DNA of 51,064 nt from a virus, in IMG/VR virus record IMGVR_UViG_3300007734_000719, positions 1-51,064 of that record; one strand, 5' to 3'. Position numbers and translations under genes: made by a program. The notes below the pieces were generated by a model. The model made no database searches. It saw only the letters and a list, made by a program, of their open reading frames with translations, and was not told where the DNA came from. The stretch's first letter is position 1; each line of letters opens with the position of its first letter. Shown piece after piece: positions 20,952 to 42,386 of the stretch.

Positions 20952-21764
20952 CTAGAAGTCAATCCCCAGGGCTTTTGCCTGTTCCTCTGTAAGCTCCATC
21001 GCTTTCTTGCGCTTGGGCTGCGGAGGGGCGGTAGGAGCTTCCTCTGTATCCTTTGCGTTAGCGGAAGGCAGCGAAGGTTGGAACCCTGAAGATCCTCCAA
21101 TTTGCGAAGGGTTTTCGGCTGCAAACTGAGCTTTGATCGCCGCGTGGTCTGAACCCAAAGGCAGTTCCACCAAGTTGGCGCCGGGAATGTGCGATTTAAG
21201 GCAATGTGCTGCGGATGAAGCACCTTCGACTGCAAGCCACTCGTTGATATCCTCGACGAGTTTCTTTTCTTCGGCGCTTTCTGCAGGACGATCCTTAAAG
21301 TCCAGAGCGTTGTAGTTGATCTTGGCTCCGTCAGCACCTGTAACAGGATCCCTTTCGTTGAAAGATTTCGTTACAAACTTGCTGCTCGTTACCACGGAGG
21401 CACAGTTAATCCTGTTGTTATACAGGGTCTGGAAGTAAGAGATAAAGTTCTTCTGGCTGGATTTACCAGAAATCATCGCCGTGGTTACACAGCGTGGCGG
21501 GAGCAGCCGATGGTTCGGGGACACACCAATAAAAGCGATGCGTAGAAACTCCTCTTGGTTCCGCATCCCTAAGTTGCCAAAGTAGGGCGTAAAGCCTATG
21601 AGGATGAACTCAATGGGGATCCCGTTGTCGTTCGCATCCACAATCGCAGAGTCTGAGTCTACGTCTGACTTCCAGCGACGAGCTTGAAGATCAATGCGAA
21701 GTGTGTGAGGAGGAACGTTAGCGAGAATCTCGTCTTCAGAAAAGTTGCCAGCGATAAATACCAT
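20952..21764 (-). CDS. Replication-associated protein with acidic/aromatic C-terminal tip
   Basis: A 270-aa protein. N-terminal beta-rich region (LRIDLQARRWKSDVD...PIEFILIGFTPYFG) and middle FLRIAFIGVSPNHRLLPP and TAMISGKSSQKNFISYFQ. The C-terminus is a flexible Pro/Ala/Lys linker ending ALGIDF, like SSB or gp2.5 tips that recruit partners. The neighbour 21780-22424 ends in a similar SIDFSL tip. A ssDNA-binding or accessory role is plausible but unproven. Confidence 0.55.
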   Translation of the reverse strand: MVFIAGNFSEDEILANVPPHTLRIDLQARRWKSDVDSDSAIVDANDNGIPIEFILIGFTPYFGNLGMRNQEEFLRIAFIGVSPNHRLLPPRCVTTAMISGKSSQKNFISYFQTLYNNRINCASVVTSSKFVTKSFNERDPVTGADGAKINYNALDFKDRPAESAEEKKLVEDINEWLAVEGASSAAHCLKSHIPGANLVELPLGSDHAAIKAQFAAENPSQIGGSSGFQPSLPSANAKDTEEAPTAPPQPKRKKAMELTEEQAKALGIDF

Positions 21765-25084: not shown

Positions 25085-25583
25085 TGTTTTCGACCATAAA
25101 CCGTTTTAAAACGTGACGTTTAGGGCTGATCATGTCCAGTGTCCTTAACCTGAACAAAGCTTCTTCGTATGTTTTAAATATCTCTGCTTTGGCTCTGTTG
25201 GAAGAGTACTCCGCCACTTTATTATTTTGTAAGTAGCTGTGGACGTACAGTCCATCCTTAGACATGATGGTCCACGTCTCCTTGAACTTCAATTTGGAGT
25301 GGGAAGCCATCTCGGCCTCTGTGTATAAACGAGGGGTCGTAGCAAGTTTAGTCATTTTTTTGGAGGTTTCATTTTTCTTAATATTTACAGACTTAACAAA
25401 TGTTTTTTTGAGAGATCTTGCTTTGTTTGCTGCGCGTAAGGCAGAGTCAAACATCTCTTCGGTCAGGTAAACTTCCGCATCGATACGAAATCCGCCGTGG
25501 TAACCCAGTTGTGTTCGGATAGCAAATACATCTTTTTTAGTTTTATCAGGAATTTTAATAAGTTCGGCTATTTGGCTGCCCAT
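25065..25583 (-). CDS. Hypothetical protein coupled to DNA polymerase
   Basis: A 172-aa, basic protein. The start overlaps the polymerase stop by 16 bp. Segments GYHGGFRIDAEVYLTEEMFDSAL and KLKFKETWTIMSKDGLYVHSYL suggest alpha/beta fold. Family not recognised; coupling suggests a role in replication. Confidence 0.6.
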   Translation of the reverse strand: MGSQIAELIKIPDKTKKDVFAIRTQLGYHGGFRIDAEVYLTEEMFDSALRAANKARSLKKTFVKSVNIKKNETSKKMTKLATTPRLYTEAEMASHSKLKFKETWTIMSKDGLYVHSYLQNNKVAEYSSNRAKAEIFKTYEEALFRLRTLDMISPKRHVLKRFMVENIDPSSC

Positions 25584-27463
25584 GAATCTCCGGTTGATGC
25601 GTCGGCGGATGCTGGTACCGATGATAGTATTTTTTCTGCTGCTTCAACCATAGTTCTCTCCAAGATACTTTTATAATCTTCTGCTAGATCTTCTCTTACT
25701 TCTAGTACTAGTTCATCATGAACACAAGCCACTAGCTTAACGTTGTCATTTAAATGAGTACCTAGCTCTGCTACTGCAATCTTAAGTATGTCAGCTCCAC
25801 TCCCCTGAACCAACGTGTTTGCAGCACACATCATCGTCGCGTCGTCATAACTCAGCAGACGGCGCCTTCCGCAAGCCGTCCGGACATAAGCCCATCCATC
25901 TTGCACTAAAGCTGCCCGTTCGTGATGCCAAGCTCTCAGCCGTGGGTAGGCCAAATGAAATGCTGCGTGAGCTACTTTGGCTTCGGATAAAGTTAACATC
26001 TTACCACTCTGTGCGGCATATGTCTTGTATTTGCGATAACCCATCCCATATAACAAGGCAAAGTTCAGAGTCTTTCCTTCTTGTCGTTGCTCTTTAGTAA
26101 CTTCTGTAATCGCTATCTTATATATTAAACTAGCTGTCAATGTGTGTAAATCTATGTCGTCTATGAATGCCTGCCTCATTTGAGGAATATTAATCAGTTC
26201 TGCTCCAAGTCTCAACTCAATCTGAGCCCAGTCACAGATAACAAGCTTGAAACCCGGAGCTGCAACAAAACATTCTCTGAAGTTTTTCGATCGAGGAACC
26301 TGTTGAATGTTTACGGAGAATACTGACTTTACCTCTTTTACCTTTGTCTTAGGAGCACCGCTGCTAGTAAAGCGTCCAGAGTTGGCGCCTACCTGGTTAT
26401 ATCCAGAATGAATCCTGTGAGTTACAGGATTAATGTTATTAATAAGCTTACTTATGTGCTCTAGCCTTGTTTCTATTTTTGCCCTTTCCCTATACAACGC
26501 CATCGTCGGATCATCGCTGTCAAACTCAGACAAAGCGATTTGACTGAGCGTGGGCTTACCTGAAGTCAAATCCTCAGGCAGTGAAATTCCGCAAGCTGTA
26601 AAAGCTGCAATTACCTGAACTGGACTCCCTGGGTTAAACTCTTTCTTCGGTTTTTTTCCGATCGCAATCAGACCTTCAGCATTCCTAGGAAGTTTATTTT
26701 CGTCAGGCAGCCTTGAATCCAACTCTGTAATAAACTGTTCCGTTTTTAGACGGAGATCTTCCTCTAGGGTTACCCGCAATCCTTTTAGTTTTGTAACATC
26801 AACACCAAATCCGGTGTAGCACATCAAAGCAACCGGACGGATACACCTAGATTCAATACTGTATATAGGAGTCAGAGCTTCTTCGCGGAGTTCTTCTAGC
26901 TGGTCTGCGGCAATCCGTGGGAGAATGTCAACGTCCGTAGCAGCGTATTCGATTTGCTCCAACGTCAGATCTGGTTGGGACCAATCTGTTCGACGCTGTT
27001 CTTTATCGAGTTCTACTTCAAGACGACGTAAGGCTATTGATTTCAAGCTGCAAGATACGTCAGCAAAGTAAGGCTTCTGTGCCACAGGGCTTATGCGCTT
27101 CTCCTTAAAACCAGCACGTAGTATCCGCTCGGCTACATATGTGTCGAAGATCTTACCCTTAAAGTCAATGCCTAAAGAAAATAAGAACTGTAAATCGAAG
27201 TTTAAATTTTGTCCGATTATCATCTCCCGTGACTCGATCAAGTCTTTCAGGGATGAGTCAACGGGTACTTTAAATAAGTCGAATACGTAAACGGTGCGGT
27301 CCTCGACAGCAGGATCTGAGTCACATAGCTGCAGCAGTCGAGGTTTGGCAATGCTGGCCTGGAGCCCCGTGGTCTCAAAGTCAAGACAGAGCTTTGTGTA
27401 TCCGGTTAGAAGTTGAATGGAATCGGTGTAATCAGATGGTGTCGTTATGTACTTGATGTTCAT
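25568..27463 (-). CDS. polA: DNA polymerase I-like (family A) with 3'-5' exonuclease
   Basis: A 631-aa protein from ATG 27463. The 3'-5' exonuclease covers residues about 20-200: exo I LCLDFETTG (D28, E30), exo II IIGQNLNFDLQFL, exo III YAATDVDILPRI. The polymerase domain has motif A ICDWAQIELRLGAEL (near 405), motif B KTLNFALLYGMGYRKY (near 465) and motif C ACVHDELVLEV (near 575). The 5'-3' exonuclease of host Pol I is absent, as usual for phage replicases. It should be the replicative polymerase. A longer in-frame start would cross a structured intergenic segment and a Lys/Arg-rich stretch that is antisense to the next gene's acidic tail. Confidence 0.95.
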   Translation of the reverse strand: MNIKYITTPSDYTDSIQLLTGYTKLCLDFETTGLQASIAKPRLLQLCDSDPAVEDRTVYVFDLFKVPVDSSLKDLIESREMIIGQNLNFDLQFLFSLGIDFKGKIFDTYVAERILRAGFKEKRISPVAQKPYFADVSCSLKSIALRRLEVELDKEQRRTDWSQPDLTLEQIEYAATDVDILPRIAADQLEELREEALTPIYSIESRCIRPVALMCYTGFGVDVTKLKGLRVTLEEDLRLKTEQFITELDSRLPDENKLPRNAEGLIAIGKKPKKEFNPGSPVQVIAAFTACGISLPEDLTSGKPTLSQIALSEFDSDDPTMALYRERAKIETRLEHISKLINNINPVTHRIHSGYNQVGANSGRFTSSGAPKTKVKEVKSVFSVNIQQVPRSKNFRECFVAAPGFKLVICDWAQIELRLGAELINIPQMRQAFIDDIDLHTLTASLIYKIAITEVTKEQRQEGKTLNFALLYGMGYRKYKTYAAQSGKMLTLSEAKVAHAAFHLAYPRLRAWHHERAALVQDGWAYVRTACGRRRLLSYDDATMMCAANTLVQGSGADILKIAVAELGTHLNDNVKLVACVHDELVLEVREDLAEDYKSILERTMVEAAEKILSSVPASADASTGDSWAAK

Positions 27464-27485
27464 TAGAAGTTTGGTTATACATAGT

Positions 27486-27522
27486 GAAGGCGCCCCCGCA
27501 GCCCGAAGGGCGAGGACGCCAC
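27486..27522 (-). other. Intercistronic GC-rich hairpin before polymerase gene
   Basis: GCCC-GAA-GGGC core inside imperfect GGCG/CGCC flanks, between the stop of the 98-aa gene and the polymerase ATG. Could damp transcription or stabilise the polymerase mRNA. Confidence 0.5.
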
Positions 27523-27533
27523 TTACTATAAGG

Positions 27534-27830
27534 TCAATATACGTCGTTCGGGTCGGGTTCTTCCTCTTCCTCCACCTCTTCTTGCTCCTCGTCTTCTTCC
27601 TCCACAAGGCGGTTCAGATTAGGCTCATCTATTTTCCGTAGCAACATACTGTAATTAGTTGCCTCGTCTATATGTTTGTTCACTTCCCTCAATACGGCTA
27701 ACCGCATACACGAGTGCAATTCGTGTGCTGTCAGACCTTCTTTAAATCCCTCTTGCAGCATTTCAGCTATGCCTGAAACGCATTCTTCAGCAGCCGGTGT
27801 CAGCTTGCTTTGTTCAAAGATTGAAGTCAT
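27534..27830 (-). CDS. Small protein with acidic tail
   Basis: A 98-aa protein from ATG 27830, two bases after the upstream stop. Helical N-terminal domain (LTPAAEECVSGIAEMLQEGF, LREVNKHIDEATNYSMLLRKI). The last 25 residues are almost all Glu/Asp (EEEDEEQEEVEEEEEPD). Second acidic-tail protein in the replication cluster. Function unknown. Confidence 0.65.
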   Translation of the reverse strand: MTSIFEQSKLTPAAEECVSGIAEMLQEGFKEGLTAHELHSCMRLAVLREVNKHIDEATNYSMLLRKIDEPNLNRLVEEEDEEQEEVEEEEEPDPNDVY

Positions 27831-28761: not shown

Positions 28762-28782
28762 TGTTGAAGTTGTTTTAGTTAC

Positions 28783-30806: not shown

Positions 30807-30819
30807 CTGTTTGGTTGCT
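30772..30819. repeat. Tandem 24-bp duplication
   Basis: Two exact copies (30772-30795, 30796-30819), covering the start codon region of the coiled-coil gene. Being 8 codons long it keeps frame. Confidence 0.9.
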
Positions 30820-30829
30820 TATGAGACTA

Positions 30830-31694: not shown

Positions 31695-32010
31695 TAGTCG
31701 TTTCTGTAATTGGTTGATACTGCGGAAGCCATTGGCCCTGTTTGTCGGTGAAGCCCGCCTCGTGTAGAAACTTTTTTGCGGCATTGGAATCTCCGTTTAT
31801 TGCGCATTCCAGCAGGGTTGGAGCCTCCAGCTCGGCGGCAATAGAGCGGATCTGATCTATATGCCAATGTTTCATGGAGCCAGCCTGATCAGCGAGCGCC
31901 CGGAGAGTGCTTATGGCAATGCTGCGTGAGTCATCCTGGGCGATCCAGGCCTTGTAAGCAGCGTCCTCTACTGCATCTGCGGCGGGGCTCAGGGGGGTGA
32001 AGTTAGTCAT
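31687..32010 (-). CDS. Fused module protein (SPAAD + GFTDKQGQWLPQYQPI)
   Basis: A 107-aa protein from ATG 32010. N-terminal SPAADAVEDAAYKAW and STLRALADQAGSMKHWHIDQIRSIAAELEA, then a different module, LLECAINGDSNAAKKFLHEAG with GFTDKQGQWLPQYQPI. The latter also ends the gene at 33256-33522. The first half is present as a relic at 4783-4845. Clear case of module fusion. Confidence 0.7.
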   Translation of the reverse strand: MTNFTPLSPAADAVEDAAYKAWIAQDDSRSIAISTLRALADQAGSMKHWHIDQIRSIAAELEAPTLLECAINGDSNAAKKFLHEAGFTDKQGQWLPQYQPITETTNG

Positions 32011-32056
32011 TGGTGACTCCATTTAGTTCGTCGGCGATGGCGAGTTGTTTCTTCAT
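32003..32056 (-). pseudogene. 17-codon relic module (LAIADELNGVTND)
   Basis: MKKQLAIADELNGVTND then stop. The same DNA, with a stop, occurs at about 4840-4872 (+). It overlaps the next ATG in an ATGACTAA junction. Probably the end of a lost module gene, possibly still translated. Confidence 0.5.
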
Positions 32057-32105
32057 TGTGCCTCCAGCTCGGCGGGGCCAGCTCGGCGCGGTGTCTTATT
32101 TACCC

Positions 32106-32900: not shown

Positions 32901-32923
32901 TTGAACTGAGTCTTTCTTTACTA

Positions 32924-32989
32924 ATTATAGACAAACTGAACCCACGTGAATAGAAGAAGAGGTTCAGACTACTGGGCTTCAAGCTCGTC
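32924..32989 (-). promoter_or_regulatory. Inverted copy of MAVQPN leader with TATAAT
   Basis: Contains the block GACGAGCTTGAAGCCCA, then CTGAACCTCTT, and GTCTATAATTAG ahead of the TTG start, aligned with 4907-5000 on the + strand. Homology shows that leader, preceding module end and gene start moved together. Confidence 0.6.
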
Positions 32990-33036
32990 TCCTCAAATTC
33001 ATCTATTAGGCGTTGGGCGCGAAAGTCGATAGTCAT
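32953..33036 (-). pseudogene. Truncated RAQRLIDE module
   Basis: MTIDFRAQRLIDEFEE matches the start of the neighbouring gene MTSDSRAQRLVDEQDG (33033-33266). It then runs into the MAVQPN leader block. This is the breakpoint where the inverted cassette joins a broken module. Confidence 0.6.
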
Positions 33037-33266
33037 TGGCGGCTCCACTTGGTGAGTACGGCTCGGGCATGATTTACAACATGGCGGTTGAGAATAGTAA
33101 GAAACACGGAAGCGGCCTTGATGTAGTTGAGATCAAAACTCGACAACGCACGTGCTGCGGCAGCTAAATCATCGCGCATCTGCTGTGGCATGAGCTCCAT
33201 GATCTCTTCATCAGTTGGCCCATCCTGCTCGTCAACTAGGCGCTGGGCGCGGGAGTCACTGGTCAT
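33033..33266 (-). CDS. Cyanophage module protein (PTDEEIMELMPQQMRDDL)
   Basis: A 77-aa protein from ATG 33266, overlapping the upstream stop. RAQRLVDEQDG, PTDEEIMELMPQQMRDDLAA, then VNHARAVLTKW. A family common in Synechococcus phages; function unknown. Confidence 0.7.
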   Translation of the reverse strand: MTSDSRAQRLVDEQDGPTDEEIMELMPQQMRDDLAAAARALSSFDLNYIKAASVFLTILNRHVVNHARAVLTKWSRQ

Positions 33267-33522
33267 GGACGGTGGCCTCGGGAATTGGTTGATACTGCGG
33301 CAGCCATTGGCCCTGTTTGTCGGTGAAGCCCGCCTCATGCAAGAATTGCTTAGCGGCGGTGGTATCACCGGCTAAGGCGCGTTTCATCAGGGTGGGCTCC
33401 ACTGGCTGAGCAGCCAAGGCGGCGCGGGCGCGGACCAATACGTCAGGTTGTACGTAGTAGTGGCTGCTGGTGTGTTCAGCCCATTCCAATAGCTCGGTGC
33501 ATAGTTCACGGAAGTCGGTCAT
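33256..33522 (-). CDS. Module protein with GFTDKQGQWLPQYQPI tail
   Basis: An 88-aa protein: FRELCTELLEWAEHTSSHYY, VRARAALAAQP, then ALAGDTTAAKQFLHEAGFTD and KQGQWLPQYQPI. The last third is shared with 31687-32010. Overlaps the next start by 11 bp. Confidence 0.7.
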   Translation of the reverse strand: MTDFRELCTELLEWAEHTSSHYYVQPDVLVRARAALAAQPVEPTLMKRALAGDTTAAKQFLHEAGFTDKQGQWLPQYQPIPEATVHDQ

Positions 33523-33737
33523 AGTGTTAGTTGATCGGTATACTGCGAGGTTAAAGGATAGTTGAATAGTTTATCAATTCGCGCTACTTCGTTTTCATAA
33601 AACTCCATAGCTTCGAATGAATCCATGCCATGTGCGGAGGCAAGGACATGAAGCCTATTTCTCGTCCTTTCAGATTCGTATAGTTGGCGCAAAATAAACA
33701 ACCGAACTTTATTTTTGTGGGATTTTTGCAAAGCCAT
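33519..33737 (-). CDS. Small hypothetical protein
   Basis: A 72-aa basic-helical protein (KNKVRLFILRQLYESERTRN) with acidic second half (FEAMEFYENEVARIDKLF). Stop overlaps the next ATG (ATGA). Unknown family. Confidence 0.55.
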   Translation of the reverse strand: MALQKSHKNKVRLFILRQLYESERTRNRLHVLASAHGMDSFEAMEFYENEVARIDKLFNYPLTSQYTDQLTL

Positions 33738-33749
33738 TAGTGATGTTGA

Positions 33750-34088
33750 TTAAGAGGGCTGTGATTCTAGTGCCTTGCGGATGGTGTCGGTAATCTCTGG
33801 TAGATAGTGGGCATCACGTTCGATGGTGCCCAACATCTGGAGTGCTAACTCGTGCAAACTCGGCGGCTTGGGGCGGCGATGGTTAAATAATACCTGAACA
33901 TCTACGGAATCCCATGCGGCGCGAGATGTGAGGTATTCGCAGCACGCCTCCAGCTCCTGGTCGGCACCCCATTGGGCGGCTTTGGTGGCGATGTACCGCT
34001 CACCGTTACCAATAATTTCTCCAGGATTGCCCCAGTATTCAGTTGTCCATTGCTGCAACATTTCAGGCGGTGGTGGTTGGTTAGTCAT
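33750..34088 (-). CDS. Cyanophage protein (WGADQELEAC...RRPKPPSL)
   Basis: A 112-aa protein: PPPEMLQQWTTEYWGN, AAQWGADQELEACCEYL, HRRPKPPSLHELALQML, ITDTIRKALE. Paralogue of the next gene and of a large Synechococcus phage family of unknown function. Start overlaps the upstream stop by ATGACTAA. Confidence 0.8.
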   Translation of the reverse strand: MTNQPPPPEMLQQWTTEYWGNPGEIIGNGERYIATKAAQWGADQELEACCEYLTSRAAWDSVDVQVLFNHRRPKPPSLHELALQMLGTIERDAHYLPEITDTIRKALESQPS

Positions 34089-34431
34089 TGAGTGTCTCCA
34101 ATGCTTTGCGGATGGTGTTGTACGTGCGCTCCTTGTCCCGAGGATCAGGTTCGCCGTAGATGTAGGTGTCTAATGCGTCACAGGCCTGTTTCTTTAGGCT
34201 CGGCGGCTTGGGGCGGCGATGCTTGCGGAGATTATCAGCGCTCCATGGCGGCAAATCAGGGAGCCACGCGCAGCATTCATCTAGCTCCTGGTCAGCGCCC
34301 CAGCGGGCGGCTAGCTGCGTGATAAACAGCTCATACGCCCACGACGTATCTGAATGCAGCAGTGGGCTTGCACGAACCCACTGCTGCACCAGCTCCGGCG
34401 GTGGGGTGATCGGATGTTGCTGGTTAGTCAT
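34081..34431 (-). CDS. Cyanophage protein, paralogue of 33750 gene
   Basis: A 116-aa protein from ATG 34431 (a start at 34455 adds 8 residues). PPPELVQQWVRASP, AARWGADQELDECCAWL, HRRPKPPSLKKQACDAL, YNTIRKALETL. Same motif order as the neighbour, so a tandem duplication with divergence. Its start context, CACTAAATCACAAATGACTAAC, resembles that at 4722 (context written in part). Confidence 0.8.
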   Translation of the reverse strand: MTNQQHPITPPPELVQQWVRASPLLHSDTSWAYELFITQLAARWGADQELDECCAWLPDLPPWSADNLRKHRRPKPPSLKKQACDALDTYIYGEPDPRDKERTYNTIRKALETLND

Positions 34432-34451
34432 TTGTGATTTAGTGAATTTAG

Positions 34452-34670
34452 TCATTCAATCCTCCTGCTGCGATGCGGTGAACAAGTGCCGCAGCCCCGG
34501 CCCCAGCTGTCGCCGTAGCCGCCGTAGCCGTAGCCGTTGCCGTAGCCCCAGCCGTAGCCGCCGTAGCCATCGCCATCACCATCGCCGTAGCCATCGCCGT
34601 AGCCGTAGCCGATGCCGTAGCCGGTGCCATCGCCGTAGCCGTTGCCAACTGGTCTGAACAGTTTAGTCAT
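34452..34670 (-). CDS. Gly-Tyr-rich low-complexity protein 1
   Basis: A 72-aa protein: FRPVGNGYG, then about 45 residues of Gly-Tyr/Gly-Asp dipeptides, then WGRGCGTCSPHRSRRIE. The paralogue just upstream has the same ends with a shorter repeat. Gly/Tyr repeats suggest a sticky, unfolded protein. Two flanking Cys may crosslink. The other frames of this repeat give Ala-Thr runs and are not considered. Confidence 0.65.
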   Translation of the reverse strand: MTKLFRPVGNGYGDGTGYGIGYGYGDGYGDGDGDGYGGYGWGYGNGYGYGGYGDSWGRGCGTCSPHRSRRIE

Positions 34671-34792
34671 TCAACCCTCCTGTTGCGGTGAGGTGAACAA
34701 GTGCCCCAGCCATAGCCATAGCCGTAGCCGTTGCCGTAGCCGTAGCCGTAGCCAGAACCGTAGCCGTAGCCGTCGCCAACTGGTCTAAACAT
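34667..34792 (-). CDS. Gly-Tyr-rich low-complexity protein 2
   Basis: A 41-aa protein, overlapping the next gene by ATGA. FRPVGDGYGYGSGYGYGYG, then WGTCSPHRNRRVE. Shares ends with protein 1; only the number of Gly-Tyr units differs. The start overlaps the stop of the gene upstream. Confidence 0.65.
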   Translation of the reverse strand: MFRPVGDGYGYGSGYGYGYGNGYGYGYGWGTCSPHRNRRVE

Positions 34793-35106
34793 CACAAACC
34801 CCAGTTTTCGGAAACTGGTACACAGAAAATCTCTGCGCCAGCAGGAATGTCTACATCAGCAATAGGGCGCAGATCAGCATTTGCTGTTTCAACCATCTTG
34901 GCGAAACCAATACTTTCCCACTTGAATACATGCAATGCACGGCTCAGGCGGATGCGGCCATTCTCCCTGGTGACATCACCAGCAAAGATCCAGCCGCGAT
35001 CCACGACTATCACTGCGCGGGTGCCGTTGGGCTGGGTAGCAGGAACAGAATCAGCGCGAACATAGTCAACGCCGTTGATTTGAATGTTAGACACAGAAGT
35101 TTCCAT
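34792..35106 (-). CDS. Conserved phage protein (NGVDYVRADSV)
   Basis: A 104-aa protein: IQINGVDYVRADSVPA, VIVVDRGWIFAGDVTRENG, SRALHVFKWESIGFAKM, then DIPAGAEIFCVPV. A beta-rich family widespread in phages, of unknown role. Confidence 0.75.
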   Translation of the reverse strand: METSVSNIQINGVDYVRADSVPATQPNGTRAVIVVDRGWIFAGDVTRENGRIRLSRALHVFKWESIGFAKMVETANADLRPIADVDIPAGAEIFCVPVSENWGL

Positions 35107-35183
35107 TGTTGTAAAGAAAAAGGATAAAGAACAGGCAGGGTTAACGACTCAGCCTTATCGTCGTGGTTATATTCTTGTAATTT

Positions 35184-35384
35184 TTAAATATGATTATGTT
35201 CTTTCTTGGCTATCCAAGATTCTGCAAACAACTCCCAAAGCTTATCGTTTGCTTCTCTGGTTTCAAATGCGAATGGTCTCCCTTCGCGCTCTGCAAAAGC
35301 ATACTCGATCTCTTCTTGAATGAGAAGACGCATTTGCTTCAGCTGGGTCTTGATGCAGTTGTTTGAGCAGTTAGTCTCAGTCAT
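35184..35384 (-). CDS. Small hypothetical protein
   Basis: A 66-aa protein; helical (IKTQLKQMRLLIQEEIEYAF) and acidic-aromatic (DKLWELFAESWIAKKEH). No family recognised; consistent strand and spacing. Confidence 0.5.
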   Translation of the reverse strand: MTETNCSNNCIKTQLKQMRLLIQEEIEYAFAEREGRPFAFETREANDKLWELFAESWIAKKEHNHI

Positions 35385-35406
35385 TTAAATTTTCCGAATA
35401 AAAGTT

Positions 35407-35865
35407 TTACAGAATAAAGTCAGGAGCATTTTCGGCGACAAAGCAAGCACAGTTCTTACCGTCTAGCTCGTCTGTACTGAACCCCATTGTGCATGAACCG
35501 TCCCAGTGGACACAACCATCTCTGACACATAAAGGTACTTTGGATTTTATTGGTTTTTTAAGTTCTTTCGGTGCAGTAATAGGTTTTTCTTTATTTTTAA
35601 AATGTTTAGGAACATAGTTCAGAGCTTCGCCACCTTCACTAACTAGTATTTCATGCGTGGAGATGCGATGCCCGCACGATACGCACTGCTTACGTCGCTT
35701 AATAAAAGTGGCGTAAGGTAGTGATTCTAAAACTCTTAGCGTAGTGCAACCACATTCGGTACAAGTTTTTAACGGGGATTTATAACCTGCTTGAAAACGA
35801 ACTTTATGTCGTAAGGGGCGCAAGTTTTCGTTAGAGGATGAAGATGTGTCTAAAAGATTAGTCAT
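35407..35865 (-). CDS. NrdR-type zinc-ribbon protein with extra Cys cluster
   Basis: A 152-aa protein. Residues about 34-72 (TCTECGCTTLRVLES, then IKRRKQCVSCGHRISTHE) match the zinc ribbon of NrdR, the repressor of ribonucleotide reductase genes. The ATP-cone that should follow is missing. Instead the end has CVRDGCVHWDGSCTMG and NCACF. It is coupled to dCTP deaminase by ATGA, so a link with nucleotide metabolism or transcription is plausible. Confidence 0.6.
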   Translation of the reverse strand: MTNLLDTSSSSNENLRPLRHKVRFQAGYKSPLKTCTECGCTTLRVLESLPYATFIKRRKQCVSCGHRISTHEILVSEGGEALNYVPKHFKNKEKPITAPKELKKPIKSKVPLCVRDGCVHWDGSCTMGFSTDELDGKNCACFVAENAPDFIL

Positions 35866-36359
35866 CCTTTACTTCCCATTACTTTTAAGTCGTTATTGTA
35901 TCGACCTGTAACAGCGTAACTCTTTAAAGGCGGTTGAGTTAACTTATGGAATATTGCTTGACCAATTTTCATTCCAGGCCAAATAGATACTGAGTGTAAC
36001 TGTCGTATGTTATGTAGCTCCAGTGTAAGCCTGCTCCCGTGCCAGCCTGGGTCCGCAAATCCGGCCAAAGCGTGGCTTAGACCTTCTCTAGCTCGACTTG
36101 ATTTGAGTGCAAAATTTGCACAGATTGAATCAGGTAAGTTAAAGATCTCTAATGTTTCAGCTAAAACAAATTGACCTGGAACAAGTAAGTAAGGTTCTTC
36201 CATCGTGTAAGGCACAAGTTCGGGTGACTGTGCAGCTTCGATAAGCAATCTTGTACCCAACCTCACGTCTAAACTGGCTGGGTTTATTAGTTCTTCATCA
36301 AAAGGATCGACTAAACCTTGTAAACACAGTTCGCGTATGTTTTGATCAGAAAGAATCAT
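35862..36359 (-). CDS. dcd: dCTP deaminase
   Basis: A 165-aa enzyme converting dCTP to dUTP, the precursor of dTMP. Motifs: INPASLDVRLG near residues 25-35, VLAETLEIF, and the signature KSSRAREGLSHALAGFADPG (about 91-110), with the catalytic Glu in LTLELHN. Length agrees with phage Dcd. No thymidylate synthase lies in the window. Confidence 0.93.
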   Translation of the reverse strand: MILSDQNIRELCLQGLVDPFDEELINPASLDVRLGTRLLIEAAQSPELVPYTMEEPYLLVPGQFVLAETLEIFNLPDSICANFALKSSRAREGLSHALAGFADPGWHGSRLTLELHNIRQLHSVSIWPGMKIGQAIFHKLTQPPLKSYAVTGRYNNDLKVMGSKG

Positions 36360-36437: not shown

Positions 36438-36704
36438 TTAGGTGTAAAGAAGCTCGCCGTTGTCTGGCGGCATGCCTAGTCTACCATGAGTGACATTCTC
36501 CCAAGCTTTCCAGTCAAACTCTTCACTATCCCACTCTTCTTCGCATCCATCGTCTGCGTACTGCCACTTGTCCAGTAGGGCATCAGCAAACTGCCCTATC
36601 ATTTCATCCATGAGGGGATCAACGTGCTTAGGGCACGAGGGGTCTTGTAGCGAGTGCCACAGTTCCAATACTTGTTCCATCGAGGGGCGCGGCATGGTAG
36701 TCAC
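36438..36704 (-). CDS. Acidic hypothetical protein after VWA gene
   Basis: An 88-aa acidic protein: SMEQVLELWHSLQDPSCPKH, QFADALLDKWQYADDG, then CEEEWDSEEFDWKAWENV. Start overlaps the VWA stop. Could be a partner or substrate of the MoxR-VWA pair, by position only. Confidence 0.55.
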   Translation of the reverse strand: MTTMPRPSMEQVLELWHSLQDPSCPKHVDPLMDEMIGQFADALLDKWQYADDGCEEEWDSEEFDWKAWENVTHGRLGMPPDNGELLYT

Positions 36705-38251
36705 CTAATGCATTTTTGAATAATGTCTGTAGTGCCTTCTTCGTCATATAAGTTAACAGAGTAGGCATCGTCTGAGAATGAATGCACAATGTCGGGTACA
36801 TCAATCCCCAAACAAATAGTATTCCATTGAGTACCTGTTTGGGTTTTAAACCTGTTCAGGGTACAAATGAATGAATCACAGACAGAGGAATGCCCATCGG
36901 TGATCATTAGGATGTCAGCACGATCGCCAACATCTGTTGTGGATACAGCATGCTGTATAACTGAGTTGAAGCTAGTACCTCCGCCAAGGTGCCAAGTCCC
37001 TACAAAGTCAAGTAACTCCTTGTTGTTCTTTCTGCCGGAAGATAATGTTACGGAATCCAAAACCCTGGTGTCAAATAAATGTATCTGAACTTCTCTATTC
37101 TCTTTTAGAGCATCCTCTGCAATAACAAAGCTGATTGCTTTGCTCCAGATTTCGTACGCTCCGCTCATTGAACCGGATACATCAACGTACATAACAATGG
37201 GACCTTTGCCTAAGTTCTTTTGATGTGCTGTGTAATCTTTAGTCAAAAGAGTCTTTTGGGAATACTTAAGTGCAAATAAAGCACGTCCGTTAGGTGAGCT
37301 AGCTAGTGCCAACTCGACCGGATAAGCACGGGTTATATCATCAGAAAATACTGCACCGTTAATAGATTCGTAGCTTGCTTTTACTTTCTTTGCTCGCTTG
37401 CGTTCACGCCATACTCTCCTAAGTGCTCCTAGCTGTTTAGCTATAGCTTTTAATTTAGCGTTAGTTGCAAGCTTCTTGGCTAAATCTTTTTTTTCCTGCA
37501 AATCAATACCGTGGGATCCTTCGCCTGCAGATATGCCCCACAGGTCTGACAGAGCATTTTCGTTGCTGTCAGAATCTTTATTTGTTTTGTCTACGATATT
37601 GCTGGCTTGTGCTCCAATCTTATCCTTAACCTCAGCCACAGCATCTTCTATCGCTTGGCCTAGTTGCTTTCCCTTCGTACGAGCTTCCTCTGCCGCAGCT
37701 TTGTCACCTTTAGCGGTAGCTTCTTGATACTGTTTGCGAAACTCTTCTAGTTGTTCCCCTGCTTGTATAAGCAGTTCTACATCAAACTGTTGTTGTTCGA
37801 TAAGCTTCTCTATAACCTCAGACAGTTGATTGAGAATATTTACAGCATTGTTACCTGCGTTAAATTGATTACCTACACTCCTTCCCAGGAGCTGGGGCCA
37901 CGCTGCTGCCGCACTGAGGTCATTCATTATGGCCCACCACAACGCATGTTCTGGTTTATATCCGCGTGGAAAACTAACTTGTTCCCCGTTCTGTTTTGCC
38001 CGAAAGTAATCTTCGTAATCATCTGGAGATATCAACCATGTCACCATGTCGCCTTGGTAAAGACGCTCAAAAACTTCCTTGCCAAAGCGACTTAGCTGAA
38101 CCACGTTGTAATGATCCATCAAATACGTAACGCTAGGTCTTGCGTCTCTGATGAAATCTTCCCACAAGAAATCTGTTAAAGCAGAACAAGCAAGAGTTAG
38201 TGGTTCGTTCTTGGATAACCGAATGAATTCTGTGTGTTTGTTTAAGTTCAT
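36701..38251 (-). CDS. ViaA/CoxE-like VWA-domain protein
   Basis: A 516-aa protein. Residues 1-170 are helical. Residues about 165-330 are long charged helices. Residues about 340-500 form a von Willebrand A domain with a complete MIDAS: DVSGSMSG near 355, T in GGGTSF near 420, D in TDGHS near 446. ViaA-type proteins work with MoxR ATPases such as RavA, here encoded 180 bp upstream. The middle region AEVKDKIGAQASN...DLWGISAGEG may bind the ATPase. Start overlaps the stop of a 58-aa gene. Confidence 0.88.
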   Translation of the reverse strand: MNLNKHTEFIRLSKNEPLTLACSALTDFLWEDFIRDARPSVTYLMDHYNVVQLSRFGKEVFERLYQGDMVTWLISPDDYEDYFRAKQNGEQVSFPRGYKPEHALWWAIMNDLSAAAAWPQLLGRSVGNQFNAGNNAVNILNQLSEVIEKLIEQQQFDVELLIQAGEQLEEFRKQYQEATAKGDKAAAEEARTKGKQLGQAIEDAVAEVKDKIGAQASNIVDKTNKDSDSNENALSDLWGISAGEGSHGIDLQEKKDLAKKLATNAKLKAIAKQLGALRRVWRERKRAKKVKASYESINGAVFSDDITRAYPVELALASSPNGRALFALKYSQKTLLTKDYTAHQKNLGKGPIVMYVDVSGSMSGAYEIWSKAISFVIAEDALKENREVQIHLFDTRVLDSVTLSSGRKNNKELLDFVGTWHLGGGTSFNSVIQHAVSTTDVGDRADILMITDGHSSVCDSFICTLNRFKTQTGTQWNTICLGIDVPDIVHSFSDDAYSVNLYDEEGTTDIIQKCIR

Positions 38252-38424
38252 GTTTGTTTTTTAGAACGAGTGATTACTTTATCTAAGTCAATTAGCAAAT
38301 TAACCAGCTGGTCATAAGCACTTGGCGGTTGAATCTCCTCCGCAGCATCTATAAAGTCTGAGAGTCGCTTTCGGATTAAAGCGAGGTCTTCGGGTTTGAC
38401 TGACATGTGATCTTGAAGAGACAT
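38248..38424 (-). CDS. 58-aa linker gene between MoxR and VWA
   Basis: MSLQDHMSVKPEDLALIRKR, LSDFIDAAEEIQPPSAYDQL, VNLLIDLDKVITRSKKQT. Two predicted helices. Stop overlaps the VWA start (ATGA) and the start lies 6 bp after the MoxR stop. The conserved operon spacing argues for a real protein, possibly an adaptor of the complex. Confidence 0.65.
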   Translation of the reverse strand: MSLQDHMSVKPEDLALIRKRLSDFIDAAEEIQPPSAYDQLVNLLIDLDKVITRSKKQT

Positions 38425-38430
38425 CCCAGC

Positions 38431-39618
38431 TTACTTGGAGAAGTCGCTTATGGCGACTGCAAGTGTGTCCGTGTAACTCTGTAGCTGTTGGTGCAGCTTC
38501 ATGCCAACTTGGCGGACGGGTAGTGTCATACGGTAGTTACCACTGTCTAGCATCTCGCTGGTTTTGTCTCGCAGAACTTGAATATCCCTGTGGAATGCAC
38601 GATACTGAACAACCAGTTCATTCAGTTCGGAAAGGGCGCGTGACTGAGCTTTATGTGCGTACGCTTGATACTGAGTCATAACACCTGATGCAGCTCGTTT
38701 TACATCACTAAACATCTTTTCCGCCGTGGGCACAGCTTGCTCTAGGACTTCTTTAATCACATCTTGATCCTCTTGTGTTCTGTACACAATATGAATTAAA
38801 GAATCGTGCATGTGTTCGGGGTACAGCTCTTCGCTTCCTTGAACTAAAGCCCAAGCACGAAGAAACTTAAGTATCTGAACACGACGGCGATCACTGATTG
38901 TGATCCCTCGGGCAGCCAACAAATCCCACAGCTCACCGTATTTACCTAAGAACTCCTCAGACACAGGCAGTGTGGCTGCTTCCTGTTGTAGTTGTTCTAG
39001 TTGTTTAAGGGTTATGTGCTTACCTACTGTTGGTCGCTGTGTAATCCCAAGAGCCCACGAATCAAGGATCCGTTTCGATACTGGTTTTTTAAGAAACTCC
39101 ACCGTGGGTCTGAACAAAAATCGATCAGCGAATGCTTGTAAAGATTCTTCGTCAGGCCAGGAGTTTGTAGCAGCGACAATAGATTGAATCGGAGTGTTGA
39201 TGACCTCTTTGCCATTGTTAAATGTGCGTTCGTTTAACAGAGTAAGAAGCGAGTTGAGGATTGCAGAAGACCCACGGAACAACTCGTCTGTAAATGCAAT
39301 GTGTGCATTAGGAAGATACCCTACAACATCCCGTGTGTACTCATCGTTAAGCAGCTTAGATACAGCAACCGGACCGAAAATCTCGGAAGGATCTGTCGTA
39401 GGAGTTAAAAGGTAACCAAAGTAGTTAGCGTCGGAAATACCACTGCATATGTTGCGCACCAGGTCGGATTTACCTGTGCCTGGCTCTCCGAGGAGAAAAG
39501 CATTCTGTTTGCTGATCAGCGTAGCTAGCAGCCCATCGATAATAGATGTTCTTTCCAGCGTAGCTTCGTTAAGAGATGCTCGAAAAGATTGAAGTGCAGT
39601 AACAAGTTTGTTGTCCAT
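38431..39618 (-). CDS. MoxR/RavA-like AAA+ ATPase
   Basis: A 395-aa protein. Walker A GEPGTGKSD (residues 44-52); Walker B HIAFTDELFRGSSAILNSLL (106-125) followed by LLNERTF; sensor 1 IVAATNSWPD (147-156); arginine finger ADRFLFR (164-170). The rest is helical with a RavA-like lid and long C-terminal helices (residues 290-395). MoxR ATPases act as chaperones that insert metals or remodel targets with a VWA partner. Phage copies are reported, but function is open. Confidence 0.9.
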   Translation of the reverse strand: MDNKLVTALQSFRASLNEATLERTSIIDGLLATLISKQNAFLLGEPGTGKSDLVRNICSGISDANYFGYLLTPTTDPSEIFGPVAVSKLLNDEYTRDVVGYLPNAHIAFTDELFRGSSAILNSLLTLLNERTFNNGKEVINTPIQSIVAATNSWPDEESLQAFADRFLFRPTVEFLKKPVSKRILDSWALGITQRPTVGKHITLKQLEQLQQEAATLPVSEEFLGKYGELWDLLAARGITISDRRRVQILKFLRAWALVQGSEELYPEHMHDSLIHIVYRTQEDQDVIKEVLEQAVPTAEKMFSDVKRAASGVMTQYQAYAHKAQSRALSELNELVVQYRAFHRDIQVLRDKTSEMLDSGNYRMTLPVRQVGMKLHQQLQSYTDTLAVAISDFSK

Positions 39619-39680
39619 GATGTTGATGTAATTGTTTGAGTACTATAGTAAATGGTGCGGAGGTTCGCAGTCCGAAAAGC

Positions 39681-39705
39681 AAAGACTTACAAAATGTAAG
39701 TCTTT
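39681..39705 (-). terminator. Perfect 11-bp hairpin upstream of MoxR
   Basis: AAAGACTTACA pairs with TGTAAGTCTTT around AAA, overlapping the stop of the 218-aa gene. On the - strand it ends in CTTTGCTTTT, a weak U-tract. Could attenuate read-through into the MoxR gene. Confidence 0.6.
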
Positions 39706-40343
39706 AATACTTTGTCCAATGGGGTTAAATTAATTTGATTCTCAGGGATAGAATTGTTAAATATTTTATTATGTTCTTTGTCGTATAACTGTTTGTATTT
39801 ATTTGTCAGTTGTTCACGTTCTTCGCAATAGTTTTGTCTTATTTTTTCAATAGCAGACACATATTTATCATGAAGATCTTCATTGAACTTTTTAAAATTG
39901 TCAATGCAACCTTCACTTTTGGCTTTCCACTCTGTAGAACGGTTTATATGTTTTGAATACTGAATACCGTCCTCGTCGTGTCCTATATCTATTGTTAACT
40001 CTTCTAAACTTTGTGTCCAACAGTATGAATTAATTTTTGTTATGTTAAACTCCAAAGGAAATTTTTTATAATATGTAGTCCATATTATAGACTTATCCTT
40101 TGCTGGTTCTTCTAATTCTTTAATTATTTTGTTAACTACAACAGCTATATCTGAATCTTCCGTTCTAGATACTTCATGCACTATGTCACTCTTAAATTGA
40201 GCCAAAAAACTTTCCACACGAAATACCCCAACGCTACTATTAGAGCCACATAAATAACGTATTTCTATTGTTTTAGGTGTTACTAAATTTGGTATGTTAA
40301 GCGGAATTGTTTGAAAAATTCGATTGATTTTAGTGCGAGCCAT
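39687..40343 (-). CDS. Hypothetical 218-aa protein of the MoxR operon
   Basis: AT-rich gene. N-terminal part (IFQTIPLNIPNLVTPKTIEI, VGVFRVESFLAQF) is beta-like; the last 90 residues form a charged helix (NFKKFNEDLHDKYVSAIEKI, REQLTNKYKQLYDKEHNKIF). Overlaps the gene upstream by 14 bp. Family not recognised. Confidence 0.6.
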   Translation of the reverse strand: MARTKINRIFQTIPLNIPNLVTPKTIEIRYLCGSNSSVGVFRVESFLAQFKSDIVHEVSRTEDSDIAVVVNKIIKELEEPAKDKSIIWTTYYKKFPLEFNITKINSYCWTQSLEELTIDIGHDEDGIQYSKHINRSTEWKAKSEGCIDNFKKFNEDLHDKYVSAIEKIRQNYCEEREQLTNKYKQLYDKEHNKIFNNSIPENQINLTPLDKVLKTYIL

Positions 40344-40551
40344 AAAATTGTTTTGCAGTTTTGCGTGGGAATAAAGTTTTGACGGGAACTACTTTACATT
40401 CATGTGTTAATTGATTTAAACATAAAAATAACCGATGAATCGCAGTATCAAAACAAACAAAAGTTACTGCTTGTTCAATATCGGTTGTGTACTCCTCAAT
40501 GTCTTTAAGATAACCTGCATCAGACTGTATTGCATATAAAGTTATGGTCAT
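40330..40551 (-). CDS. Small hypothetical protein of the MoxR operon
   Basis: A 73-aa protein, MTITLYAIQSDAGYLKDIEE, TFVCFDTAIHRLFLCLNQL. Overlaps the 394-aa gene by one base and the 218-aa gene by 14. Function unknown. Confidence 0.55.
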   Translation of the reverse strand: MTITLYAIQSDAGYLKDIEEYTTDIEQAVTFVCFDTAIHRLFLCLNQLTHECKVVPVKTLFPRKTAKQFYGSH

Positions 40552-41735
40552 TAAAAGTCAACCTCCTTTAGTTGTTCTTCTTCAACATGTGTAAAGGTAC
40601 TATCACCATTAAGAGCGTCAAACAACTCACGTCGCTGAGCAATTATCTTGTTAATATGTTTAGAACGTTGAGTGTAAATATCAAGTTCTATGTTAGCATC
40701 GGCTATTACTTTCTCTAATACACTAACTGTCTCCGCAGTTTTTAACTGTTCGCACAAAGTCTTATAGTTATTTGACAAAGCTAAAGACTTTTGCAAAGTT
40801 TCAAGTCCTTTAGAAGAATCCCGCATAGATACAATTGACTCAAGCTCTAAACGAATATCACTCTGCACTTGCTGAAACATCTGACAACCCTCTTCGCGCA
40901 CTGTTCTGTTTATTGCCTGAATAGACTCACCAGCTTTAAGTAATTTTTCAGCCAATGTTGCCAAATTATCAAAACCTGGCACAGAATCGCTAATCAACTT
41001 TAATCTTTGAGCGGTAATCTGCCACGAACCACGTTTCTTGTCTCCACCAGTTTGTTGACGACCGATCTTTGTCGCAGTCCGCACATCCAAATCATCTAAT
41101 AATTCAGCACTCATAAACAGTGCTTTATCTGCTGCGTTAGCGTGCGCTGCCTCGATAACTTCCTTAGTGTTAATAAGATTTTCGTGAGCAATTAAAGATT
41201 CAATGTCCCCTTCAATCGGTTCTGTAACAGTTTCAAGTGAAACAGGTAATGGACCAACAACGTGAACCCTGATGGGGTTTCGATATTCTTGCCGCGTGGG
41301 AAACACCTTTAAATAAGCTTCGCGGGCCAGAGAATATTCTGTCTCATCAGAAAACAATGGGTGCAAGAAACCTTCGACTGTTTCACACCATTTGCTGTGC
41401 TCTTCCTCCCAGAGTTCAAATAGTTTTGCGTTAGAAACTGTAGCCTGGGCACGAATAAACTTAATGAGGTTGTTGGCTTCCTCAAAATAATTTGAAGTTA
41501 CAAAATGATTGTCGCCAAAGTGCAAACAATAACTGTCGTATAGTTCCCGTTGCATGACACGCAACGCATCAAGTTCAGCCTTAAGAGCATTAGACAGGTT
41601 TGGACGCAAAGAAACAGTGTTGTTCTTCTCCAAAGTGTCTACAACTGATGCAGGCAATTTAAGATCGTTAAATTTGACCTGGATTGATTGCCTAACGTTG
41701 GCAGAGATAGAACAAGAAAGCAAATAAGAATTCAT
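40551..41735 (-). CDS. DUF3150-like protein, partner candidate of MoxR-VWA
   Basis: A 394-aa, almost all-helical protein. The N-terminal part (IQVKFNDLKLPASVVDTL, SLRPNLSNALKAELDALRVM, ELYDSYCLHFGDNHFVTSNY) and a W-rich segment (LFELWEEEHSKWCETVEGFL) resemble DUF3150 proteins, which I recall next to MoxR and VWA genes in phages and plasmids. Residues about 240-385 are coiled coil. First gene of the operon. Assignment is tentative. Confidence 0.5.
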   Translation of the reverse strand: MNSYLLSCSISANVRQSIQVKFNDLKLPASVVDTLEKNNTVSLRPNLSNALKAELDALRVMQRELYDSYCLHFGDNHFVTSNYFEEANNLIKFIRAQATVSNAKLFELWEEEHSKWCETVEGFLHPLFSDETEYSLAREAYLKVFPTRQEYRNPIRVHVVGPLPVSLETVTEPIEGDIESLIAHENLINTKEVIEAAHANAADKALFMSAELLDDLDVRTATKIGRQQTGGDKKRGSWQITAQRLKLISDSVPGFDNLATLAEKLLKAGESIQAINRTVREEGCQMFQQVQSDIRLELESIVSMRDSSKGLETLQKSLALSNNYKTLCEQLKTAETVSVLEKVIADANIELDIYTQRSKHINKIIAQRRELFDALNGDSTFTHVEEEQLKEVDF

Positions 41736-41823: not shown

Positions 41824-41964
41824 TCAGCACCCTGGACCATACATCACCGGGTTTCTACAGATTTGGGCTTCTTGATGCATCTGGGGCTTGTGCTTCAAAC
41901 CCGCAGATGTTGCTATAAGGAGAAGTCCAGTCAAGATCAAGAAAAAAGGATACGGGCTTGTCAT
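41824..41964 (-). CDS. 46-aa secreted/membrane peptide
   Basis: MTSPYPFFLILTGLLLIATS, AGLKHKPQMHQEAQICRNP, then VMYGPGC. A signal-anchor-like hydrophobic N-terminus, two Cys in the tail. ATG overlaps the upstream stop (ATGA). Lysis or superinfection roles are possible. Confidence 0.55.
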   Translation of the reverse strand: MTSPYPFFLILTGLLLIATSAGLKHKPQMHQEAQICRNPVMYGPGC

Positions 41965-42386
41965 TTTAAACGGGTGAAAGCAAGGGAAATTTTATCAGTA
42001 ACCATATCTACGTTACCGGTTATTGCTAGTTGTTCGACAAGCTTCTTGCGCTCGACCTTAGCAACTTTAAGTTGCTGCTCAAGCTTAAAGATCTTTTCGT
42101 CAATCTTATCGATCTTGTTGTGCGCCGTGGGGATACGGGTGACCCGTACAATTATGTTCGTTTCAACCTCAGGAAACTTAAAAGCAGAATCCTTGCCGCT
42201 GAACACAGACAGATCAAAGTTGTGTGCGCTAGCCACGGTAATGTCAGTCTGTAGCTTGTCTTTGGTGATCTCAAACGGAGCACCAAAAGCTTCGTTACAG
42301 GCTGTTAGAGCATTGTCGCACTCATTCCAAGCCGTAGCTGCTGCCCGACCTTCCTGAACTAGACGCTGAAAGTTGATTGTTGCCAT
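41961..42386 (-). CDS. Hypothetical coiled-coil protein
   Basis: A 141-aa protein: QEGRAAATAWNECDNALTAC, a beta-like middle (NIIVRVTRIPTAHN) and a final coiled coil (DEKIFKLEQQLKVAKVERKK). Coupled to the 46-aa gene. Unknown family. Confidence 0.55.
   Translation of the reverse strand: MATINFQRLVQEGRAAATAWNECDNALTACNEAFGAPFEITKDKLQTDITVASAHNFDLSVFSGKDSAFKFPEVETNIIVRVTRIPTAHNKIDKIDEKIFKLEQQLKVAKVERKKLVEQLAITGNVDMVTDKISLAFTRLK

Follow-up and report, generated by a model that had tools for sequence, protein, structure and literature searches.

MoxR-VWA pairs are widespread and few of their substrates are known; those encoded by viruses have mostly been interpreted as virion-assembly chaperones. 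Such a pair lies in a 51,064-nucleotide stretch of virus DNA, referred to here as the window (IMG/VR record IMGVR_UViG_3300007734_000719, positions 1 to 51,064), and raises the question of what a phage would do with this machine and with the genes packed around it. The first-pass annotation had described seven co-directional, near-overlapping genes, including the MoxR ATPase and VWA genes, as an operon. All seven ORFs were confirmed on the minus strand, no overlap or gap between neighbors exceeding 68 nt, and they are not chance ORFs. Compared with a close relative, the MoxR, VWA, 394-aa (A) and 73-aa (B) genes have dN/dS values of 0.06-0.11. The seven genes do not form a conserved unit, because the 218-aa (C), 58-aa (D) and 88-aa (E) genes are lineage-specific, and a core gene had been overlooked: the gene for a 141-aa protein (41961..42386, minus strand) is conserved and comes first in the phage cassette.

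The MoxR protein (395 aa; 38431..39618, minus strand) is a RavA-subfamily AAA+ ATPase. It matches the Pfam bpMoxR model PF20030 above cut-off (E 7e-56) and the NCBIfam RavA model NF010054 at E 1e-36, with a score of 126.9 bits that is below the RavA equivalog cut-off of 681. The full motif set ascribed to it at first reading is in place: Walker A GEPGTGKS at residues 44-51 (39466..39489, minus strand, from the translation), Walker B DE at 111-112, sensor 1 at N152, arginines R166/R170, and SDRRR at 242-246. Walker B, sensor 1 and the arginines are conserved in 14 homologues, and within Walker A of the same 14, G44 and P46 through S51 are invariant, only E45 varies, and D52 comes next. The VWA protein (516 aa; 36701..38251, minus strand) combines a ViaA-like C-terminal VWA domain with an N-terminal domain of its own. 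It matches NCBIfam ViaA NF008230 at E 2e-19 over profile positions 152-456, scoring 69.9 bits against an equivalog cut-off of 500, and matches Pfam VWA families at E values near 1e-6. Its MIDAS (D357-x-S359-x-S361, T426 and D452; 36896..37183, minus strand) is complete, as had been claimed, and invariant in 15 homologues. No effector domain was found C-terminal to the VWA domain, with which the protein terminates.

These matches support assigning the MoxR-VWA pair to the RavA-ViaA type. As in the enterobacterial RavA-ViaA system, a RavA-subfamily MoxR gene directly precedes a gene for a VWA co-chaperone with a C-terminal VWA domain and a MIDAS. The two systems differ in that both phage proteins score far below the equivalog cut-offs, and in that the phage pair is preceded by a third gene, A. 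By hhalign, the phage MoxR aligns with Salmonella RavA at 99.8%, but only over residues 8-269 of 395; since Salmonella RavA has 509 residues and the phage protein only about 125 beyond residue 269, there is no room for LARA. The phage VWA protein aligns with ViaA over residues 230-500 only, so that its N-terminal half and the N-terminal region of ViaA are unmatched, and with a plasmid VWA protein over its full length (13-505, E 2e-29). These affinities also bear on whether the pair might insert metal or mature an enzyme in the manner of NorQD or CobST, activating a metalloenzyme of the phage or some other enzyme encoded in the cluster. Characterized pairs such as NorQD couple remodeling with metal insertion (PMC13036017), and a PHROG "porphyrin biosynthesis" family is among the matches, weakly (phrog_249, E 5e-5). 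The closest matches are nevertheless RavA and ViaA rather than CobS/CobT or NorQ/NorD, and the genes beside the cassette include no conserved metalloenzyme candidate; a dCTP deaminase gene adjoins it in some lineages only and changes position. We consider metal insertion improbable.

The third gene, A (394 aa; 40551..41735, minus strand), encodes the third component of the system. We found A in 76 viral loci and anchored the following counts on it, with loci that had enough sequence as denominators. MoxR and VWA genes lie downstream of A in 70/70 such loci, and the 141-aa gene lies upstream in 66/66. Since MoxR and A belong to a set of 14 families shared by all ten sequences compared, conservation among these phages by itself could be conservation within a lineage. 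The same triad also occurs on Acaryochloris and Chroococcidiopsis plasmids. On these plasmid backbones, from two cyanobacterial genera, A precedes MoxR, and VWA follows in intact copies; five of the seven plasmids carrying an A gene were typed as conjugative. Phage A aligns with full-length plasmid homologues at 97-98% probability in hhalign (E 7e-12 to 2e-13), and the comparison is specific, as five plasmid A genes score 82-101 and the next unrelated protein among 178 scores 28. The order A, MoxR, VWA thus recurs on independent elements, and a ternary A-MoxR-VWA unit is well supported. The one exception is contig G015, in which the MoxR-VWA pair is present and the A, B and 141-aa genes are missing upstream, so that A may be dispensable or may have moved. 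Scans of cellular genome contigs with the A and MoxR alignments found no relative, in a search that needs conserved peptide patterns and would therefore miss distant ones. The expectation that the genes would be co-inherited was thus borne out strongly for A, MoxR and VWA, plasmids included, and failed for the seven-gene set as a whole.

What kind of protein is A? It had been called DUF3150-like, a label with some support at the level of predicted fold. The top BFVD entry in a Foldseek search with the A model is a protein from a phage, annotated "DUF3150 domain-containing protein" (probability 1.00, E 4e-6, TM-score 0.39), but the DUF3150 HMM (PF11348) does not match A at E 1, nor at E 10 does it match plasmid or diverged phage homologues of A or seven related records. 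The model itself has a pTM of 0.59, and its TM-scores to DUF3150-type matches are only 0.3-0.4; searches of the PDB returned generic helical matches only. We therefore describe A as DUF3150-like by predicted fold only, and in the open-access literature searched we found no mention of DUF3150. Candidate homologues elsewhere proved different. Mycobacteriophage Lolly9 gp132 was rejected as a homologue of A (hhalign 0.1%), as was the Aphanizomenon phage CL131 gene upstream of MoxR, which carries an LPD29 domain. On Moorella phage MTATph1 and a Brevibacillus marinus plasmid, a related MoxR-VWA pair is preceded, at a distance of a few genes, by a gene for a DUF6744 protein (E 6e-61 in the phage), which has no detectable homology to A. 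The arrangement of MoxR, VWA and a dedicated third protein resembles the ternary systems described by Kaur et al. in 2020 (PMC7159879), and the best match of the phage MoxR domain is the bpMoxR model. Unlike those systems, whose third proteins include VMAP, iSTAND, FtsH and beta-propeller proteins, neither A nor its plasmid homologues contain VMAP, iSTAND, FtsH-type or beta-propeller domains by Pfam, the phage VWA protein lacks a C-terminal effector, the carriers are phages and plasmids, and the phage triad sits within a replication cluster.

That cluster places the triad in context. In the window and nine longer related genomes, the cassette heads a single co-directional replication cluster encoding PolA, a candidate SSB, exonuclease and primase/helicase. 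Across these ten sequences, one of them a contig cut before VWA, the order 141-A-MoxR-VWA-p272-PolA-HTH-SSB-270aa-121aa-exonuclease-primase/helicase is invariant. The PolA-type DNA polymerase (25568..27607, minus strand; phrog_17, E 3e-101) lies downstream of the cassette, 1.0-1.9 kb from VWA in the relatives and 9.1 kb in the window. Farther along are a candidate phage SSB (21780..22424, minus strand), weakly matched by PF00436 at E 0.0016, below cut-off, and a 270-aa replication-module protein (20952..21764, minus strand). The TerL and portal genes lie on the other arm, on the strand opposite to the cassette; TerL was located in the longer relatives with phrog_38, as PF03237 had no match in them. 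This layout bears on the proposal that the pair is a virion-assembly chaperone, which has direct viral precedent: the Acidianus two-tailed virus (ATV) MoxR ATPase p618 is a virion protein, has a strong interaction with the VWA protein p892, and has been assigned a part in tail development (PMC4124505), and virion assembly was also proposed for the MoxR-vWA pairs of group 2.2 jumbo phages (PMC7824862). The archaeal viruses ATV and SMV1 share with our phages a viral MoxR with a VWA partner (PMC4124505), but p618 is larger, has extra C-terminal helices, and is only distantly related to the phage MoxR (about 32% over 39% of the query). The jumbo-phage pair is likewise phage-encoded, but its vWA protein carries a fused metallopeptidase, a domain not found in the VWA protein of the window; the regions of Atu_ph07 inspected for the jumbo-phage pair did not contain it. 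With the phage triad on the replication arm and its counterpart on plasmids, which have no virion, an assembly role seems unlikely here.

The C-terminus of A offers a further clue. Its last two residues, Asp-Phe (codons at 40554..40559, minus strand), are invariant in 75/75 loci and 62/62 distinct proteins, whereas seven different residues occur at the position third from the end. They cap a tail (residues 377-394, pLDDT below 50) that is predicted to be disordered and is variable and mostly acidic. Of the 63 conserved families, just two have an Asp-Phe C-terminus: A and the 270-aa protein. The 270-aa protein, LGIDF at its end in the window, terminates in [DE]F in 10/10 genomes and 74/76 loci, the other two being extended by one Asp, and the SSB candidate ends in SIDFSL in 80/80 loci. 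The tips of SSB and T7 gp2.5 are likewise acidic disordered tails with a terminal Phe; A is modeled as mainly helical, with moderate model confidence, its tip is Asp-Phe, and no SSB HMM matches it. One could read A as a DNA-replication protein, an accessory of SSB, that merely adjoins a functionally unrelated MoxR-VWA pair. This reading would fit the Asp-Phe end that A has in common with the 270-aa protein, the internal Asp-Phe of the SSB tip, and the single contig with MoxR-VWA and no A nearby. The MoxR-VWA pair nevertheless accompanies A in 70/70 phage loci, and A precedes MoxR on plasmids of two cyanobacterial genera, where no SSB gene is annotated near the triads. Coincidental adjacency is accordingly a very unlikely account. 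The plasmid A proteins end in DPxxGF, which retains the terminal Phe but is not Asp-Phe.

The remaining genes of the cassette are less uniform. The 141-aa protein, whose gene has a dN/dS of 0.06 against the close relative, yields a confident AF2 model (pLDDT 94.5) of a long helix, a short beta hairpin and a second helix, with no match in BFVD and no Pfam or PHROG family at a credible score. B (40330..40551, minus strand) is frequent in the cassette and divergent: tblastn finds it in 51/75 loci, some of the others have a recognizable, more diverged ORF in its slot, and its dN/dS is 0.11 against the close relative. C (39687..40343, minus strand) evolves quickly; it is 54% identical to its orthologue, where neighboring genes are 86-100% identical, has a dN/dS of 0.69 against the close relative, and is missing from most relatives. 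E (36438..36704, minus strand), an acidic protein, occurs in the nearest relatives only and has a dN/dS of 0.33 based on few changes. D (38248..38424, minus strand), between MoxR and VWA, had been put forward as an adaptor. It shows 8 synonymous and 0 non-synonymous changes against the close relative, but it is conserved in the nearest relatives only, and in many relatives without it the MoxR stop and VWA start codons are at most a few bases apart. Because D is lineage-specific, the adaptor proposal does not hold in general.

The presence of a defined third protein, the constant position at the head of the replication cluster and the plasmid counterpart together point to either the DNA metabolism of the element or conflict with the host. 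The latter had been offered at first reading as a counter-defense machine: MoxR-VWA with A would dismantle a host complex early in infection, be it a defense system or a transcription or respiratory complex, and plasmids would use the machine during establishment. The cassette lies on the replication, presumably early, arm, and early clusters also carry host-takeover genes, so position in a replication cluster is no proof of a replication role. The triad occurs on phages and conjugative plasmids alike, two kinds of element exposed to the same defenses; the fast-evolving C and the lineage-specific small genes resemble the products of an arms race; and MoxR-VWA pairs are central to predicted conflict systems (PMC7159879). 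Weighing against it, no meaningful PADLOC or effector-domain match was found, the three core proteins are strongly conserved and not diversifying (dN/dS 0.06-0.08 against the close relative), and the placement of the cassette next to PolA is fixed in all longer relatives in which both are present. A NACHT gene beside one plasmid copy of the triad is missing from a near twin and was rejected as a fixed effector. Counter-defense or host takeover is thus a weaker rival to the remodeling of replication complexes, conceivable but doubtful.

We infer a replication role for the triad, and our leading, still tentative proposal, to which we give somewhat less than an even chance, is that it is a ternary MoxR-VWA remodeler of phage or plasmid DNA-replication complexes, with A as its Asp-Phe-tipped adaptor or substrate. 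By analogy with characterized MoxR-VWA pairs, MoxR would form a hexameric ring in which the VWA protein is seated, and the MIDAS metal would grip an acidic residue of a partner. In such pairs the MIDAS takes an acidic sixth ligand and is required for action on the target (PMC9976466, PMC13036017), and it has been described as a binder of extended or unstructured peptides (PMC7159879). A would be the dedicated partner, either an adaptor or the first substrate, and its disordered, Asp-Phe-ended tail may be the docking handle. The tip might bind the MIDAS, or it might bind a pocket of the replication machinery that also takes the C-termini of SSB and the 270-aa protein. The energy of ATP hydrolysis would then be used to dissociate, load or activate a protein complex on the DNA of the element, one that contains SSB, polymerase or primase. 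On this view the machine would work in the replication or processing of the genome and not in virion assembly.

More speculatively, and with a rather low expectation of being right, the Asp-Phe-type tips of A, the 270-aa protein and SSB (IDFSL) could constitute an address code common to the three proteins, recognized by the MIDAS or by one pocket of the replisome that takes them all, with the MoxR-VWA machine as a remodeler dedicated to the phage replisome. We know of no MoxR-VWA machine shown to act on a DNA-replication complex, and such a replisome remodeler, found on phages and plasmids alike, would be the first. The invariant Asp-Phe is a two-residue handle that can be deleted, making the choice between MIDAS ligand and replisome tag directly testable. 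For this family of aquatic phages, the triad would amount to a three-protein, ATP-driven machine, a proposed remodeler with a counterpart on cyanobacterial plasmids.

We found that the seven open reading frames grouped by the first-pass annotation into a MoxR-VWA-DUF3150-like operon (36438-41735) all lie on the minus strand where it had placed them, and neighbors overlap or are spaced by no more than 68 nt. Its call of a MoxR/RavA-like ATPase (395 aa, 38431-39618) is borne out by matches to PF20030 (bpMoxR, E 7e-56) and NCBIfam RavA (1e-36), and the 516-aa VWA protein (36701-38251) has hits to VWA families as well as to NCBIfam ViaA (2e-19). The complete MIDAS and the candidate Walker A, Walker B, sensor and arginine-finger motifs that it had read are kept across 14-15 homologues. 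MoxR aligns with Salmonella RavA over residues 8-269 only, without room for LARA, and alignment of the phage VWA profile with Salmonella ViaA is limited to residues 230-500. Comparison with the close relative L003 shows purifying selection on the main genes, with dN/dS of 0.06 for MoxR, 0.08 for VWA and 0.07 for the gene of the 394-aa protein, here called A (40551-41735). The values are 0.06 for a 141-aa gene upstream of A (41961-42386, minus strand) and 0.11 for the 73-aa gene (40330-40551), while the 58-aa gene (38248-38424) shows zero replacement changes. The outlier among these neighbors is the 218-aa gene, with a dN/dS of 0.69 and 54% amino acid identity to its L003 orthologue; its product may face the host or competitors.

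Searches anchored on MoxR and on A recovered 31 and 76 viral loci, respectively, and a scan of genome_contigs (84,980 species) for A returned none. MoxR and VWA lie downstream of A in 70/70 A-anchored loci with enough sequence, and the 141-aa gene, which falls beyond the originally proposed operon, lies upstream in 66/66. The 73-aa gene is frequent. The seven-gene unit did not survive this comparison, as the 218-, 58- and 88-aa (36438-36704) genes are restricted to near relatives or some lineages. Loci lacking the 58-aa gene often space MoxR and VWA by 3 nt or less. In other lineages, the 218-aa gene (39687-40343) is absent or replaced. One incomplete contig (3300010370_000064) has MoxR-VWA but is missing the A, 73-aa and 141-aa genes upstream; many small genes occupy that slot, several with a common ITPPPEL motif near the start. 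MoxR and A are both among 14 families found in all ten sequences of our genome comparison (nine longer genomes plus the window), so their retention inside this group may, by itself, be lineage conservation.

In the plasmid collection, MoxR has its closest cellular relatives on plasmids of Acaryochloris and Chroococcidiopsis, in which MoxR and VWA come after a 442-469-aa gene; two additional plasmid copies are broken or degraded. The match of the A profile to these 442-469-aa proteins extends along their length, at E 7e-12 and 6e-13 (prob 97.5-97.9). In a control of 178 proteins, five plasmid A genes score 82-101 and a fragment of one scores 30, against 28 for the top unrelated protein. Between the phage VWA profile and plasmid VWA, the alignment spans residues 13-505 (E 2e-29). 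On these profile matches, A-MoxR-VWA is a ternary system common to phages and plasmids. A HigBA-type module (HigA/RelE-type toxin-antitoxin genes) separates MoxR and VWA on three Chroococcidiopsis plasmids; on one (L162) HigA is its sole annotated gene, and on another (L163) the gene at the VWA position has only a hypothetical annotation. This module was seen in Chroococcidiopsis, and a NACHT gene follows one Acaryochloris triad copy but not its twin, so we count neither among the fixed triad parts. Moorella phage MTATph1 and a Brevibacillus marinus plasmid each carry a related MoxR-VWA pair with a DUF6744 gene upstream at a distance of a few genes; this may be a parallel ternary system in Bacillota. 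The plasmid carriers, together with the fast-evolving 218-aa gene, would suit a counter-defence machine, a possible role for which a search of defence families gave no match.

In the phages, the triad lies at the head of a replication cluster. The ten sequences share an invariant co-directional order of 141-aa, A, (73-aa), MoxR, VWA, 272-aa, PolA, HTH and SSB genes, followed by 270-aa, 121-aa, exonuclease and primase/helicase genes; one contig (G014) is truncated before VWA and PolA. Relatives have 1.0-1.9 kb between VWA and PolA. The window has ~9 kb of small genes there (27833-36359), with a dCTP deaminase and a metallophosphoesterase among them. Within this stretch are a member of a small-gene family (33750-34088; 18 members in 8/10 compared genomes, several copies per genome) and a short Gly-Tyr-rich frame (GYGYGDGYGDG..., 34452-34670) that may not be a gene, as the repetitive stretch is readable in several frames. 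TerL (phrog_38) and a portal-like protein are encoded on the opposite arm and strand from the cassette. Virion assembly has been proposed for ATV p618/p892 (PMC4124505) and in jumbo phages (PMC7824862). Here, this gene position and the plasmid occurrence disfavor that role, and we favor one in DNA replication or processing.

Neither TerL nor portal genes were recognized within the 51-kb window, which is therefore probably a fragment from a phage group with longer members of 78-87 kb, although it covers its virus record in full. A cyanobacterial host is plausible, given that the nearest isolate polymerases belong to Pseudanabaena phages (27-28% identity) and that the plasmid triads closest to it come from cyanobacteria. 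UDP-galactopyranose mutase-like (2392-3588) and GT47/RXYLT1-like glycosyltransferase (48718-49668) genes suggest that the phage modifies glycans, and a sigma-70 factor with regions 1.2, 2, 3 and 4 is encoded at 9092-9991.

Protein A matched zero Pfam families. Its AF2 model (pLDDT 77, pTM 0.59) consists mainly of helices and has a disordered end (377-394); it has no significant PDB match, and its top BFVD hit, a phage DUF3150 protein, scores E 4e-6 (prob 1.00, TM 0.39). The DUF3150-like label proposed earlier may thus be apt for the predicted fold but not for family membership, for which the HMM search was negative. Every one of the 62 distinct A proteins has Asp-Phe at its C-terminus, although positions -3 to -18 of the mostly acidic tail each accept 7-14 different residues; plasmid A proteins end in DPVVGF, DPVAGF or DPEAGF. 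Among 63 conserved phage families, a DF end is found only in A and the 270-aa replication-module protein (20952-21764), which ends in [DE]F in 74/76 loci. The adjoining gene encodes a 214-aa SSB candidate (21780-22424; E 0.0016, below cut-off) that ends in SIDFSL in 80/80 loci. Together, A and these two proteins hint at a C-terminal tip code common to members of the replication cluster. A 121-155-aa protein of the module (19651-20118) has a mostly strongly acidic tail of varying length, whose last residue is Phe in each of the ten aligned genomes.

Bacterial SSB tails and T7 gp2.5 tails bind replisome pockets by their tips. The Asp-Phe tip of A may likewise dock in a replisome pocket also used by SSB and the 270-aa protein. 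Alternatively, the disordered acidic tail, tipped by the invariant Asp-Phe, is a good candidate for the MIDAS ligand. In studied pairs (NorQD), the VWA domain is seated in a hexameric MoxR ring and extends a finger into its pore, while the MIDAS metal takes its sixth ligand from an acidic target residue (PMC9976466, PMC13036017); MIDAS motifs are also described binders of extended or unstructured peptides (PMC7159879). In either version, the machine would act on DNA-replication or processing complexes. While this function is one we infer, the identity of A-MoxR-VWA as a real, conserved ternary MoxR-VWA variant borne by phages and plasmids is well supported, and its third protein has apparently not been described before.
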